From: Micromonospora echinofusca
Lineage (GTDB): Bacteria > Actinomycetota > Actinomycetes > Mycobacteriales > Micromonosporaceae
NCBI RefSeq assembly: GCF_900091445.1
Contig: NZ_LT607733.1
Location: forward strand, 4,863,001-4,927,000
Direction: 5' to 3'
DNA length: 64,000 nucleotides
Every line of letters begins with the position of its first letter. Position 1 is the first letter of the stretch. Below the pieces are notes generated by a model that was not told the DNA's origin, did not search any database, and worked only from the letters and a program-made list of their open reading frames with translations. A program made the position numbers and the translations under genes. Shown piece by piece: positions 25,702 through 57,441 of the stretch.

Positions 25702-27150
25702 CTACAGGTCGGCGGGAGCGGCCAGCCGGCCCGCCACGGCGGTGGCGGCGGCGACCGGCGGGGAGACCAGGTGGGTGCGTCCGCCCCGGCCCTGGCGGCC
25801 CTCGAAGTTGCGGTTGGAGGTGGAGGCGGAGCGCTGCCCCGGCGAGAGCGTGTCGGGGTTCATGCCGAGGCACATGGAGCAGCCGGCGAAGCGCCACTCG
25901 GCGCCGGCGTCGGTGAAGACCTTGTCCAGCCCTTCCGCCTCCGCCGCCTCGCGCACGGCGGCGGAACCGGGCACGACCAGCATGCGTACCCCGTCGGCGA
26001 CCCGGTTGCCGCGCAGCACGTCGGCGGCGGCCCGCAGGTCCTCCAGCCGGCCGTTGGTGCAGGAGCCGACGAAGACCACGTCGACCGCGAGGTCCCGCAG
26101 CGGGGTGCCGGGGCGCAGGTCCATGTACTCCAGCGCCCGCCGGGCGGCCGTCCGCTCGGCCTCGGTGCCGAACTCCTCCGGCGTGGGCACCACCGCGCCC
26201 AGCGGCGCGCCCTGACCGGGGTTGGTGCCCCAGGTGACGAACGGGGTGACGGCGCCGGCGTCCAGGGTCACCTCGGCGTCGAAGGTCGCGCCCTCGTCCG
26301 TGGGCAGGGTCCGCCACCACTCGACCGCCGCGTCCCAGTCGGCGCCCTTCGGCGCGTTGGGCCGCCCCTTCAGGTACGCGAAGGTGGTCTCGTCCGGCGC
26401 GATCATGCCGGCCTTGGCGCCCCACTCGATGGACATGTTGGCGATCGTCATCCGCCCCTCCATGGACAGCGACCGGATCGCCTCGCCGCGGTACTCGACG
26501 ATGTGCCCGCGCCCGCCGCCCGTGCCGACCTGGGCGATCAGCGCGAGGATCAGGTCCTTGGCGGTGACCCCCGGGGCGAGCCGCCCCGTCACGTTCACCG
26601 CCATCGTCCTCGGCCGGGCCTGCGGCAGCGTCTGGGTGGCCAGCACGTGCTCGACCTCACTCGTGCCGATGCCGAACGCGAGCGCGCCGAACGCGCCGTG
26701 GGTGGCCGTGTGCGAGTCGCCACAGACGATGGTCATGCCGGGCTGGGTGACGCCGAGCTGCGGGCCGATGACGTGCACGATGCCCTGGTTCTCGTCGCCC
26801 AGCGGGTGCAGTCGCACGCCGAACTCGGCGCAGTTGCGCCGCAGCGTCTCGATCTGCGTACGCGAGGTGGGGTCGGCGATGGTGAGCAGGTCGCCGCGCC
26901 GCTGCCGGAACGACGGGTCGGCGTACCCCGTCGGGGTGTTGTGGTCCTCCGTCGCGAGCGTGAGGTCGGTGCGGCGCACGCGGCGCCCGGCGAGGCGCAG
27001 CCCGTCGAAGGCCTGCGGGCTCGTCACCTCGTGCAGCAGGTGCAGGTCGATGAAGAGCAGATCGGGCTCGCCCTCGGCGGACCGTACGACGTGCGCGTCC
27101 CAGACCTTCTCGGCCAGGGTCCTCGGCTCGGCAGTAGTGACTCCCACCAT
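25702..27150 (-). CDS. leuC: 3-isopropylmalate dehydratase large subunit
   Basis: Catalytic [4Fe-4S] subunit of isopropylmalate isomerase, 482 residues. The iron-sulfur cysteines are seen in [12 protein letters not shown] near residue 350 and [13 protein letters not shown] near residue 413. [20 protein letters not shown] is the aconitase-family signature. The gene starts only 49 bases from the ndgR start on the other strand. This compact divergent arrangement is typical of IclR control of leuCD. Confidence 0.97.
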
Positions 27151-27159
27151 CTGGACATC

Positions 27160-27186
27160 CTAAATTCTGGGAGGTAAGTTTCGGCT
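27160..27186. promoter_or_regulatory. Candidate NdgR operator in the leuC-ndgR divergent promoter
   Basis: The intergenic span is only about 50 bases and unusually AT-rich for this window (CCTAAATTCTGGGAGGTAAG). It contains GGTAAGTTTC at 27173-27182, found again upstream of ilvE at 48687-48696 in reverse orientation. TTCTGGGAGG at 27166-27175 resembles TTTTGGGAGG upstream of the cimA leader near 41015. The NdgR assignment is inference. Confidence 0.45.
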
Positions 27187-27199
27187 TGTGGGACACAGT

Positions 27200-27886
27200 A
27201 TGAGCGGTGTCGGCGTTCTCGACAAGGCGGTGGTCATCCTGGCCGCCTGCGTCGACGGCGCCAGCCTGGCCGAACTCGTTGAACGCACCAAGCTGCCCCG
27301 GGCCACCGCGCACCGGCTGGCGCAGGCGCTGGAGATCCACCGGATGCTGGTCCGGGACACCCAGGGTCGCTGGCGTCCCGGCCCGCGCCTGGGTGAGCTC
27401 GCCAACGCGGCGCCCGACGTGCTCCTGACGGCGGCGGAGCCGCTGCTCGCGGCGCTGCGGGACGCGACGGGCGAAAGCGCCCAGCTCTACCTGCGCCGCG
27501 CCGACGAGCGCATCTGCGTGGCCGCCGCCGAGCGGGCCAGCGGCCTGCGCGACACCGTGCCGGTCGGCTCGGTGCTGCCGATGACGGCCGGCTCGGCGGC
27601 GCAGATCCTGCTCGCCTGGGAGCCGCCCGAGGCGGTGATGCCGCTGCTGCCCCGGTCGAAGTTCACCGGCCGCACCCTCGCCGAGGTACGCCGTCGCGGC
27701 TGGGCGCAGAGCGTCGCCGAACGCGAGGCCGGTGTGGCGAGCGTCTCGGCGCCGATCCGCGACCGCACCGGTCGGGTCATCGCCGCGATCAGCATCTCCG
27801 GCCCCATCGAGCGCCTCGGACGCCGCCCCGGCGAACGCCACGCGATGGCCGTGGTCCGGGCCGGCCAACGCCTCTCCGGCCTCTGA
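27200..27886 (+). CDS. ndgR: IclR-family regulator NdgR of leucine/branched-chain metabolism
   Basis: A 228-residue IclR-type regulator (232 if GTG at 27188 is used). ATG at 27200 is preferred because homologues begin SGVGVLDKA. The winged helix is at about 5-60 (LAELVERTKLPRATAHRLAQALE) and the effector domain follows, with GSVLPMTAGSAAQILLAW and SVSAPIRDRTGRVIAAISISGP. NdgR in Streptomyces and LtbR in Corynebacterium are known to regulate leuCD and other amino acid genes. The divergent position to leuCD is conserved. Confidence 0.93.
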   Translation: MSGVGVLDKAVVILAACVDGASLAELVERTKLPRATAHRLAQALEIHRMLVRDTQGRWRPGPRLGELANAAPDVLLTAAEPLLAALRDATGESAQLYLRRADERICVAAAERASGLRDTVPVGSVLPMTAGSAAQILLAWEPPEAVMPLLPRSKFTGRTLAEVRRRGWAQSVAEREAGVASVSAPIRDRTGRVIAAISISGPIERLGRRPGERHAMAVVRAGQRLSGL

Positions 27887-39285: not shown

Positions 39286-40866
39286 TCAGACCCGGGCCCG
39301 GTCGAGGCCGTAGGTGAGCGCGTCGACGAGGGCGTGCCAGGACGCCTCGACCACGTTGGGGTGCACGCCGACGGTGGTCCAGTCGCGGCCGGCCCCGTCG
39401 ACCGTCTCCAGCAGCACCCGGGTCACGGCACCGGTGCCGTGGGTGCCCTCCAGGATCCGCACCTTGTAGTCGGCCAGCACGAAGTCGCGCAGCTCCGGGT
39501 AGTGCCGGGCCAACCCCACCCGCAGCGCCTCGTCCAGGGCGTTGACCGGACCGTTGCCCTCGGCGGTGGCGATGACCCGCTCCCCGCGTACGCGGATCTT
39601 GACGGTCGCCTCGGAGACCACCGACCCGTCCTCCCGGTGCTCGACCAGCACCCGGTACGACTCCAGCGCGAACGGTCGGGCGGGCGCGGTGTCCAGCTCC
39701 GAGCGGACCAGCAGCTCGAACGACGCGTCGGCGGCCTCGAACGACCAGCCGCCGGCCTCCAGCTCCTTGACCCGCCGGGTGACCCGCGACAGCGCCTCCG
39801 GATGGCCGGCCAGGTCCAGGCCGAGCTCGCGGCTCTTGAGCTCGACGCTGGCCCGGCCGGCCATCTCGGTGACGAGGATCCGCATGTCGTTGCCCACCAC
39901 CTGTGGGTCCACGTGGTTGTAGAGCAGCGGATCCACCTTGATCGCGCTCGCGTGCAGCCCCGCCTTGTGGGCGAAGGCCGCGGCCCCGACGTACGCCTGG
40001 TGGGTGTCGGGGGCGATGTTGGCGATCTCGGCGATGGCGTGGGAGACCCGCACCATCTGCCCCAGGCAGCCGTCCGGTAGGACGGGCAGCCCGAGCTTGA
40101 GCTGGAGGTTGGCGACCACGGCGAAGATGTCCGCGTTGCCGGGGCGCTCGCCGTAGCCGTTGGCGGTGCCCTGGAAGTGGCGTACGCCTGCCTCGACGGC
40201 GGCGACGGTGTTGGCGACCGCGCAGGACGTGTCGTTCTGGCAGTGGATGCCGAGCAACTCCGGGCCGACGCCGAGCCGCGCGGTCACCTCGGCGATGGCG
40301 GCGGTCACCTGGGACGGAAGCATCCCGCCGTTGGTGTCGCAGAGCACCACCCGTTCGGCACCGGCGGCGAGCGCCGTCTCCACCACGGCGGCGGTGTAGG
40401 CCGGGTCGGACCGGTAGCCGTCGAAGAAGTGCTCCCCGTCGACGAAGACGCGCCGCCCCTCGGCGACCAGGTGCGCGACCGTGTCGCGGATCATCGCCAG
40501 GTTCTCCGCCGCGGTGGTGCGCAGCGCCCGCTCGACGTGCCGCAGGTCCGCCTTGGCGACCAGGGCGACCGCCGGCGTCTGCGCGTCGAGCAGCCCCCGT
40601 ACCTGCGGGTCGTCGGCGACCGGCACCCCGGCCCGCCGGGTGGCCCCGAACGCGACCAGCAGCGCGTGCTTCAGGTCGAGTTCGGTGCGCGCCCGCCGGA
40701 AGAACTCGGTGTCCTTCGGCACGGCGCCGGGCCAGCCTCCCTCGATGAAGCCGACCCCGAACTCGTCGAGCAGCCGGGCCACCGCGAGCTTGTCGACCAC
40801 CGAGTAGCTCAACCCCTCGCGCTGGGCGCCGTCGCGCAGCGTCGTGTCGTAGACCTGGAACGTCAT
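39286..40866 (-). CDS. cimA: Citramalate synthase
   Basis: Condenses pyruvate and acetyl-CoA to (R)-citramalate, the threonine-independent entry to isoleucine. The 526-residue protein has the HMGL-like TIM barrel at 1-275 (YDTTLRDGAQREGL, FIEGGWPGAVPKD, LLGIHCQNDTSCAVANT, GTANGYGERPGNAD) and a C-terminal LeuA-type regulatory domain (ETVDGAGRDWTTVGVHPNVV). FIEGGWPG distinguishes it from 2-isopropylmalate synthase. It is preceded by a leader peptide with two Ile ATT codons and a terminator, so it appears controlled by attenuation. Ribosome binding site GAAAGGA is 8 bases before the ATG. Confidence 0.95.
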   Translation of the reverse strand: MTFQVYDTTLRDGAQREGLSYSVVDKLAVARLLDEFGVGFIEGGWPGAVPKDTEFFRRARTELDLKHALLVAFGATRRAGVPVADDPQVRGLLDAQTPAVALVAKADLRHVERALRTTAAENLAMIRDTVAHLVAEGRRVFVDGEHFFDGYRSDPAYTAAVVETALAAGAERVVLCDTNGGMLPSQVTAAIAEVTARLGVGPELLGIHCQNDTSCAVANTVAAVEAGVRHFQGTANGYGERPGNADIFAVVANLQLKLGLPVLPDGCLGQMVRVSHAIAEIANIAPDTHQAYVGAAAFAHKAGLHASAIKVDPLLYNHVDPQVVGNDMRILVTEMAGRASVELKSRELGLDLAGHPEALSRVTRRVKELEAGGWSFEAADASFELLVRSELDTAPARPFALESYRVLVEHREDGSVVSEATVKIRVRGERVIATAEGNGPVNALDEALRVGLARHYPELRDFVLADYKVRILEGTHGTGAVTRVLLETVDGAGRDWTTVGVHPNVVEASWHALVDALTYGLDRARV

Positions 40867-40890
40867 CAGGGAGTCCTTTCTCAGAGCAAC

Positions 40891-40920
40891 AAAAAGACCC
40901 CCCGCGGATGCGGGAGGTCT
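40891..40920 (-). terminator. Attenuator terminator in the cimA leader
   Basis: Minus-strand hairpin with 11-base arms (GCGGGAGGTCT and AGACCCCCCGC, one G-U pair, 4-base loop) followed directly by TTTTT. It lies between the leader peptide and cimA, 24 bases before the start codon. A T-run of this kind is rare in this GC-rich window. Confidence 0.8.
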
Positions 40921-40949
40921 GCGCGCTCGGCGGAGGGGAGGCCGGCGCG

Positions 40950-40991
40950 CTAGGTGCGAATAATCAGGTGGGTGCTGGTCACGGTCGCCAC
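40950..40991 (-). CDS. Leader peptide of cimA (attenuation peptide)
   Basis: A 13-codon frame, MATVTSTHLIIRT, GTG start at 40989-40991 (a second GTG at 40980-40982 would give 10 residues) and TAG stop. It holds CTG ATT ATT: Leu followed by two Ile codons of the form ATT, which is rare where ATC is the norm. The ribosome would stall there when charged tRNA-Ile is low, allowing an antiterminator to form before the terminator at 40891-40920. Too short for family comparison; support comes from position, codons and terminator. Confidence 0.75.
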   Translation of the reverse strand: MATVTSTHLIIRT

Positions 40992-41105
40992 TCTGCCACC
41001 CGCCCCCTGGTTTTGGGAGGCACAATCCACATGGCGGGACGGTGACGGAGGGTCGCGATACCGCATCGACGGGCCGTGCGCCGGCACAACCCGCCGCCGG
41101 TGATC

Positions 41106-41207: not shown

Positions 41208-41768
41208 GTGCTCACTGTCGGTGACCGCTTCCCCGAGTACGAACTCACCGCCTGCGTGTCGCTGGACGCCGACAAGGCGTTCGAGTCGATCGACCACAAG
41301 TCCCACCAGGGGAAGTGGCGCGTCGTCTTCTTCTGGCCGAAGGACTTCACCTTCGTCTGCCCGACCGAGATCGCGGAGTTCGGCCGGCTGAACGAGGAGT
41401 TCGCCGACCGCGACGCCCAGGTCCTCGGCGTGTCGGTGGACAACGAGTTCGTCCACTACGCGTGGCGCAAGGACCACCCGGACCTGCGCGAGCTGCCGTT
41501 CCCGATGCTCAGCGACGTCAAGCGCGAGCTGACCGCCGCCTGCGGGGTGCTCGGCGAGGACGGCGTGGCCCAGCGGGCCACCTTCATCGTCGACCCGGAC
41601 AACGAGATCCAGTTCGTCATGGTGACCGCCGGCTCCGTCGGCCGCAACGTCTCCGAGGTGCTGCGGGTGCTCGACGCCCTCCAGACCGACGAGCTGTGCC
41701 CGTGCAACTGGAACAAGGGCGGCGAGACCCTGGACGCCACCAAGCTCCTCGCCGGCGCCGGGGCCTGA
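41208..41768 (+). CDS. ahpC: Alkyl hydroperoxide reductase AhpC (2-Cys peroxiredoxin)
   Basis: A 186-residue peroxiredoxin that reduces organic peroxides and peroxynitrite. The peroxidatic Cys is in DFTFVCPTEIAEFG near residue 49 and the resolving Cys region is DELCPCNWNKGGETL near residue 165, as in the AhpE-independent mycobacterial AhpC. GTG start at 41208 follows AAGGAGG. AhpD follows after 2 bases and serves as its reductase partner. Confidence 0.96.
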   Translation: MLTVGDRFPEYELTACVSLDADKAFESIDHKSHQGKWRVVFFWPKDFTFVCPTEIAEFGRLNEEFADRDAQVLGVSVDNEFVHYAWRKDHPDLRELPFPMLSDVKRELTAACGVLGEDGVAQRATFIVDPDNEIQFVMVTAGSVGRNVSEVLRVLDALQTDELCPCNWNKGGETLDATKLLAGAGA

Positions 41769-42947: not shown

Positions 42948-42974
42948 CGGCCCCCCGCGGATCGCGGGGGGCCG
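42948..42974 (+). terminator. Terminator of the PRC-barrel gene
   Basis: Perfect 12-base arms CGGCCCCCCGCG / CGCGGGGGGCCG around a 3-base loop. It ends only 13 bases before the GTG of the next gene, so that gene must use a promoter inside or close to this hairpin. Confidence 0.75.
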
Positions 42975-49851: not shown

Positions 49852-50073
49852 GTCCCTGTGCTCCCTCGCCTAGCCGTTTCGTCGACCGTACGCCGCCGTC
49901 CCGTCCCCCGGTACGAACCTTCCAGAATGCGGGAAAGGCGGATGCACAGGATCCTCCCAGGTGGCATTCATGGGGAGGTCATCTCCGCTGCCTAGCGTGA
50001 TGGCGTGCGGGTCGACGGGGGCCCGTGACGGAGGCCACGACGACGCGGCCGGCGTCAGCGAGGGAGCAGCGTC

Positions 50074-57259: not shown

Positions 57260-57289
57260 AAAAAAGCCCTCGTGCAGGATGCACGGGGC
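57260..57289 (-). terminator. Attenuator terminator in the ilvB leader
   Basis: On the minus strand GCCCCGTGCA-TCC-TGCACGAGGGC forms a hairpin with one bulged base and is followed by TTTTTT. It lies 87 bases before the ilvB start and 28 bases after the leader peptide stop. An 11-base perfect hairpin (AGCGCACTCTC / GAGAGTGCGCT, 57291-57318) precedes it and overlaps the leader stop codon. Confidence 0.82.
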
Positions 57290-57317
57290 CAGCGCACTCT
57301 CGACGGGGAGAGTGCGC

Positions 57318-57353
57318 TCAGGTAAGTACTCGCAGCGACCGGTACGACGACAT
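57318..57353 (-). CDS. Leader peptide of ilvBNC (attenuation peptide)
   Basis: An 11-residue frame, MSSYRSLRVLT, ATG 57351-57353 to TGA. Its end contains CTG CGA GTA CTT: Leu, Arg, Val and Leu with the rare codons GTA and CTT. Ribosome stalling when Val or Leu tRNAs are uncharged would affect the hairpin at 57291-57318 and so the terminator. Actinobacterial ilvBNC operons (Corynebacterium, Streptomyces) are known to use leader attenuation. Confidence 0.75.
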   Translation of the reverse strand: MSSYRSLRVLT

Positions 57354-57441
57354 GCGGTCAAGCCTGACGCATCTCACGCGATGAGTCAACTGATCCCACA
57401 TGTTGGTTCACGGGTCGCCGGCTTTCACCCGTCCGGGGCGC

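Follow-up and report, generated by a model that had tools for sequence, protein, structure and literature searches.

A Conserved Leader Upstream of cimA in Micromonospora echinofusca Resembles an Isoleucine-Responsive Transcription Attenuator

The citramalate synthase gene cimA of Micromonospora echinofusca is preceded by a short leader open reading frame (ORF) with two adjacent isoleucine codons, followed by two abutting hairpins, the second of which is predicted to be an intrinsic terminator. From a comparison of sequences, we consider it very probable that this leader controls cimA by ribosome-mediated transcription attenuation in response to charged isoleucyl-tRNA, with low isoleucine leading to read-through. 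We infer the sign of this response and the step by which termination would be prevented. All coordinates given are those of the window, which is the whole stretch of 64,000 nucleotides that was analyzed.

Parts of the cimA leader

The cimA gene lies on the minus strand (39286..40866) and encodes a protein of 526 amino acids, which was identified by TIGR00977 (599.8 bits against a cut-off of 450). Upstream of the gene, the minus strand reads CAGAGTGGCGACC, then GTG ACC AGC ACC CAC CTG ATT ATT CGC ACC TAG, and then a GC hairpin. The leader ORF (40950..40982, minus strand) has a GTG start, encodes VTSTHLIIRT and stops at TAG; its length of 10 codons was assigned from the sequence and from comparison with the other leaders of the family. 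The tandem Ile codons ATT ATT at 40959..40964 (minus strand) are the proposed regulatory codons, and an adjacent Ile pair is kept in the family set as well as in the class-wide set. Hairpin A, the proposed antiterminator, occupies 40921..40950 (minus strand), and its first pair takes the last base of the TAG stop codon, the G. With a spacer of 0, it adjoins the stem-loop of the intrinsic terminator (40895..40920, minus strand), which has the sequence AGACCTCCCGC-ATCC-GCGGGGGGTCT. Both hairpins were assigned by folding and covariation. The U-tract of the terminator, TTTTGTT (40888..40894, minus strand; majority sequence TCTTTTTGTTG in alignment A1), is followed by GAAAGGA (40874..40880, minus strand), judged from its sequence to be the cimA ribosome binding site, and by the cimA ATG at 40866. 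An earlier note on this DNA had pointed out an ATT ATT leader frame, a stop, a GC hairpin and a T-run before cimA on the minus strand, and these are seen in the sequence. Its reading of the hairpin and T-run was right in that there is a terminator with a U-tract; there are, rather than one hairpin, two that abut, the first of them starting within the stop codon, at its third base.

A -10-like box, CAGAGT (40990..40995, minus strand), lies 7 nt 5' of the leader start and was recognized by its positional conservation. When the 88 family representatives are anchored on the start codon, 76 have an A at -12 and 77 have a T at -8. Class-wide, an xAnnnT box lies 6-8 nt from the start in 106 of 122 elements, whose leader starts were picked partly for the presence of a -10-like box. 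The cimA leader ORF is probably leaderless, a leaderless transcript being what the sequence suggests. Alignment of the 88 family upstream regions also revealed a conserved CTCCCA (41014..41019, minus strand) at about the -35 position, which is not like the TTGACA of a -35 element. The earlier note had given the leader 13 codons by starting it at GTG 40991. This start was rejected, as it overlaps the CAGAGT box and, of the 127 leaders parsed in the family, just 16 have an in-frame start codon three codons upstream; the conserved start is GTG 40982, which gives 10 codons. The 5' neighbor of cimA (41208-41768, plus strand) is transcribed divergently from it. Since this neighbor is transcribed away from cimA, the terminator before cimA does not mark where that gene ends.

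The same 88 aligned regions contain a further conserved box, GTCCCGCCATGTGGA (41026..41040, minus strand; consensus GTCCCGnnATGTGGA), which is a possible regulator site. A palindrome-like box, TCCCRnnATGTGGRA, is found upstream of both cimA (41026-41040, minus strand) and ilvB (57394-57408, minus strand). Weaker matches were seen at 49920-49934 (both strands), near a gene that is presumably leuB-like, and at 27142-27172 (both strands), between genes that we take from their translations to be leuC-like and of the IclR type (27188-27886, plus strand). The pattern matched the window 7 times compared to 3.5 expected, and 7 of 100 shuffles reached 7. The box is possibly the operator of one branched-chain regulon.

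Conservation within and beyond the family

ATT makes up 9 of the 465 Ile codons in 45 ORFs of the 64-kb window, a set obtained with a GC3 filter that lets in some doubtful ORFs. The remark in the earlier note that ATT is uncommon here was therefore correct. In the family Micromonosporaceae, cimA was present in 198 of 200 genomes, and its upstream region was read at 129 loci (29 of the 30 loci of a first set and 100 more). The leaders had adjacent Ile codons at 126 of these 129 loci and a single Ile codon at the other 3. The exact pair ATT ATT was kept in 114 of 129, which agrees with the earlier view that two in a row are unlikely by chance, and the last six codons of the family leaders held 243 ATT versus 14 ATC. 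The N-terminal part of the leader peptide varies across the family, while 94 of 127 parsed leaders are 10 codons long. At four of the 129 loci (L080, L091, L117 and L120) the frame runs past the usual stop position; two of these (L091 and L117) have CAG at that position and go on to a later stop. One more locus (L014), with a cimA start that does not fit the pattern, stands outside the reading, and its genome (G195) has a model match. The leader is also present in a divergent member of the family (L415).

A covariance model of the leader matched all 80 named cimA loci, which are the best 80 of 219 and overlap in part with the 129 unnamed family loci. They come from Micromonospora, Verrucosispora, Salinispora, Plantactinospora, Phytohabitans, Asanoa and one unclassified Micromonosporaceae isolate. 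Conservation in close relatives, which the earlier note had set as a test, was thus found both for the Ile frame and for the structure. Its proposal of isoleucine-sensing attenuation of cimA is supported by this comparison and by the reach of the element far past the family.

The fold of the cimA leader had a z-score of -4.66, and none of 200 shuffles was equally stable. One terminator-like site was seen, with 0.3 expected. In 78 aligned sequences, changes on both sides were found in 7 of 16 pairs (21 cells), a result that 0 of 500 shuffles matched, though the alignments follow models that carry the structure and pair counts lean towards it. Sliding the partners by 1-3 columns as a control left both-side changes in at most one pair. 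The lower stem of hairpin A was paired in 100% of cells, with both-side changes in 2 of 5 pairs, and the terminator stem had them in 5 of 11.

Two features within 40887-40920 (minus strand) are conserved without clear reason: a G-U pair of the terminator, which is UG in 65 of 78 sequences, and the GTTG after the U-run. Elsewhere in the window, a GC-rich hairpin between two ORFs (42949-42973) was picked up on both strands by the terminator portion of the model and is perhaps a terminator.

Of 397 genomes of the order, 274 were matched by a first covariance model, built from 38 sequences, and 300 had cimA itself. Among the 318 order genomes outside the family, 188 had both the match and cimA, 33 had cimA only, 7 had a match only and 90 had neither; these figures are co-occurrences per genome, with only part of the matches traced to a gene. 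In the class, a second model matched 261 of 394 genomes and found a match in 108 of 137 genera. In a sample of the phylum, 64 of 296 genomes gave a match, including 12 from the class. The gene downstream of the match was then checked at 94 loci from among the best-scoring matches and was cimA at 93 and ilvB at one. By set, cimA followed at 40 of 40 loci from the order, 28 of 28 from the class, 19 of 20 from a further class set (the other being ilvB, at L348) and 6 of 6 from the phylum search, where some genomes are in more than one set, two phylum-search loci lie at places already covered, and the 40 order loci and 20 class loci were picked for diversity among the best listed matches rather than at random. 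Weaker model matches may include ilvB leaders.

The 33 genomes with cimA only (33 of 221 cimA-bearing order genomes outside the family) were followed up with the second model, and 27 gave some match at E up to 1. Thirty of these lax-match loci were read: 19 were at ilvB, 5 at cimA and 6 at neither. Gene order accounts for 5 of the 33 genomes, all of family f3, and the other 23 lie outside the set read at cimA. In all five f3 genomes whose cimA upstream region was read (L410-L414), cimA follows immediately after another ORF and lacks the leader, as would be expected if it is co-transcribed with that ORF. We take the preceding ORF to be leuB-like from a motif in its translation. Seven genomes had a match and no cimA. 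Of three loci read in these genomes, one is an ilvB leader and the other two resemble ordinary terminators.

Proposed mechanism and alternatives

The geometry of the leader was compared across the class. All 122 aligned cimA elements have an Ile codon 8-17 nt 5' of hairpin A. The first of these near codons is 11-17 nt before the hairpin (-14 in 74 elements and -11 in 34), and two or more adjacent Ile codons are present in 110 of 122; these figures rest on a leader-picking rule that rewards Ile codons. The leader stop is at -2 to -4 in 88 of 122 elements; the other 34 have it inside hairpin A, at +10 to +16. Since the Ile offsets keep the same range despite the two stop positions, the distance that is kept is the one from the Ile codons to hairpin A, not the one from the Ile codons to the stop. 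Hairpin A spans anywhere from 22 to 76 nt. The gap between it and the terminator measured 0 nt in 107 of 123 elements and 1 nt in the other 16, a count that likewise leans towards the structure carried by the models.

Folding was repeated with a ribosome in place, which was assumed to cover 12 nt past the first base of the A-site codon. Without a ribosome, the median energy of the hairpin A region was -19.3 kcal/mol. It was -18.3 when the ribosome sat on the first Ile codon, -9.9 on the last one and -1.8 on the stop. The median fraction of hairpin A energy kept was 1.00, 0.49 and 0.10, respectively. Hairpin A therefore tolerates a ribosome on the first Ile codon and hardly tolerates one on the stop, so its formation would report stalling at isoleucine. 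In the free-RNA fold, hairpin A and the terminator form together, so any exclusion between them is not thermodynamic.

Two other pairings were tried and rejected. The duplex energies of both terminator arms, compared to mononucleotide shuffles, gave no general competitor that could serve as an overlapping antiterminator. The C-rich loop of hairpin A could pair with the G-run of the terminator in the window sequence; by eye, this loop is not C-rich in other genera.

We propose that transcription begins at or beside the GTG and that a ribosome would then load on the leaderless leader ORF. When isoleucine is scarce, this ribosome would stall with its A site on an Ile codon. If that codon is the first one, the computed geometry puts the front edge of the ribosome just short of hairpin A, which could form. 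When isoleucine is plentiful, the ribosome would reach the stop at the base of or inside hairpin A and, by the same calculation, cover its 5' arm. Hairpin A would be the antiterminator and would act by steric exclusion, which is the least certain step. While the abutting hairpin A is folded, the base of the terminator would be unable to close within the RNA polymerase exit channel. Low isoleucine would then give read-through into cimA and high isoleucine would give termination. Steric exclusion is proposed because hairpin A abuts the terminator (0-1 nt) and yet mostly does not overlap it, and it is proposed only inside RNA polymerase because the two hairpins coexist in the free fold. Support for the predicted sign comes from its biological sense and from analogy to the ilvB1 leader of Mycobacterium tuberculosis.

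A classical trp-type attenuator would work in another way, as the stalled ribosome would allow an antiterminator helix between the 5' arm of the terminator and upstream RNA that is mutually exclusive with the terminator. There is general precedent for this, the fold of one ilvB leader (L376, family f8) extends the first hairpin into the base of the terminator, and an extension of hairpin A into the terminator by 1-3 bp is possible in 9 of 122 cimA elements, only those. However, the 5' arm of the terminator pairs upstream more weakly than shuffled sequence does (median -5.2 versus mean -8.4 kcal/mol), and the elements that beat their own shuffles by 3 kcal/mol numbered 0 of 122 for the 5' arm and 5 of 122 for the 3' arm. 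This makes a trp-type switch unlikely for cimA. The response could also have the reverse sign, with hairpin A stacking on the terminator and aiding termination until a ribosome at the stop, under isoleucine-replete conditions, relieves it. Although the two stems directly adjoin and coaxial stacking is possible, an isoleucine-biosynthetic gene would go off under starvation, and the M. tuberculosis ilvB1 leader acts the opposite way according to the accessible part of its report (PMC13236596). We regard this reversal as quite improbable.

A nascent leader peptide might instead bind free isoleucine and stall the ribosome at the stop. TnaC stalls in this manner with tryptophan, and most family members do have conserved residues directly before the stop. 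Conservation is mainly of the Ile codons, though, while the other residues and the length vary; 34 of 122 elements have the stop 10-16 nt into hairpin A, and the sister ilvB leaders have other residues at about the same place. An arrest peptide is very improbable in light of these observations. Slighter still is the chance that a constitutive terminator or an unrelated small RNA lies 5' of cimA and that the ORF is there by accident. Terminators are common, but the Ile codons, their distance to hairpin A and the place before cimA are all kept class-wide, and the upstream neighbor is divergent.

If the isoleucine-sensing attenuator operates as proposed, the threonine-independent isoleucine route, whose first gene is the one found in 300 of 397 order genomes, would gain a specific end-product sensor. 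The gene cimA encodes the first dedicated step of isoleucine synthesis, and the switch would halt the supply of the enzyme when isoleucine is plentiful. The more than 100 natural variants could be used to study how termination might be disabled by a hairpin that does no more than touch the terminator, and the leader is a candidate part for isoleucine sensing in producer strains.

Sister ilvB leaders and known attenuators

The cimA model also found a leader upstream of ilvB in the window, 16 kb from the cimA leader (27.2 bits, E 4.3e-05). Its ORF (57318..57353, minus strand) encodes MSSYRSLRVLT before the stop. By folding, its hairpin A (57291..57318, minus strand) starts at the last base of this ORF's stop codon and is abutted by its terminator (57265..57290, minus strand). 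Used as a DNA query, this leader gave matches in 43 of 61 family genomes. The codons CGA GTA CTT, with CGAGTACTT, were present at 30 of 30 family loci read, own genome included. The GTA CTT pair (Val, Leu) is a parallel to the ATT ATT before cimA. Other ilvB leaders have Leu-Val-Ile/Leu/Val at about the same distance, and a stop codon at or inside a hairpin that abuts the terminator is common to the cimA leader, the ilvB leader of the same genome and the other ilvB leaders. Since the ilvB leader has Val/Leu codons and the cimA leader Ile codons, ilvB appears to sense valine and leucine in this genome and cimA isoleucine. The one ilvB leader among the checked matches (L348:201-282) encodes MTSRRDRVVP before its stop, with RVVP on a cimA-like scaffold, which suggests codon swaps on one scaffold. 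The cimA and ilvB leaders were cross-detected by the same models and likely share common descent. A broader reading, which we hold tentatively and at slightly less than even chance, is that actinomycetes have one modular branched-chain scaffold with codons exchanged according to the target (Ile in front of cimA, Val/Leu in front of ilvB), on which antitermination would be steric, without competing pairs. On this reading, a hairpin 0-1 nt from the terminator would obstruct it within RNA polymerase until a ribosome at the stop opens that hairpin.

No gathering-level match to the T-box riboswitch or any other family was found at the cimA leader in Rfam release 15, and at E up to 1 there was one sub-threshold match, on the other strand. 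The literature searched was mostly open-access; among the matches listed, no report of a cimA attenuator was found, in agreement with the earlier note, which knew of none described in actinobacteria. Leaders of ilvB and the LEU element of actinobacteria were predicted in 2005 as short ORFs with Ile/Val/Leu codons and terminators (PMC1262725). In the accessible part of that paper, "citramalate synthase" occurs 0 times and cimA is unmentioned; the LEU element is described there as a pseudoknot. It goes with a Leu-codon leader before leuA, in contrast to the cimA target and Ile codons found here. Citramalate and cimA occur 0 times in the available portion of a paper on leader peptides in Streptomyces lividans (PMC8079986), cimA does not appear in the part seen of PMC12857756, and a paper on a methanogen cites the Corynebacterium glutamicum ilvBNC attenuator (PMC13158618). 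For Streptomyces clavuligerus, 96 novel premature transcription units are given in the part of the report at hand (PMC8269248), and the cimA leader may be listed in supplementary tables of such units, e.g., those of S. clavuligerus.

The Corynebacterium ilvB-II motif is similar in having an upstream ORF that spans a P1 hairpin and a P2 terminator, according to the main text available (PMC10272879). Unlike the element described here, it was reported before ilvB in one genus, and "citramalate" occurs 0 times in that main text. The M. tuberculosis ilvB1NC attenuator, as presented in the accessible part of its report (PMC13236596), also has a leader ORF with branched-chain codons, an intrinsic terminator and a biosynthetic target, and its antiterminator is proposed to be masked by a ribosome at the stop codon. 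Changing LVVI to AAAA in the ilvB1 leader gave low, inhibitor-independent reporter expression (PMC13236596, same part). The two differ in the target gene, in the codons (LVVI there versus II in the cimA leader) and in the antiterminator, which is described there as mutually exclusive with the terminator. In the three-hairpin "fast" attenuator of C. glutamicum ilvBNC, the bases of the antiterminator and terminator are adjacent, the regulatory codons are for branched-chain amino acids and the start codon is one nt from +1, as stated in the sections available (PMC11857589). In contrast to the cimA leader, where 113 of 122 elements allow no extension into the terminator, a GCC trinucleotide is common to both hairpins there, and a further anti-antiterminator has been proposed. 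Attenuation of ilvB has thus been described before in both C. glutamicum and M. tuberculosis; what would be new here is cimA as the target and, possibly, the antitermination step.
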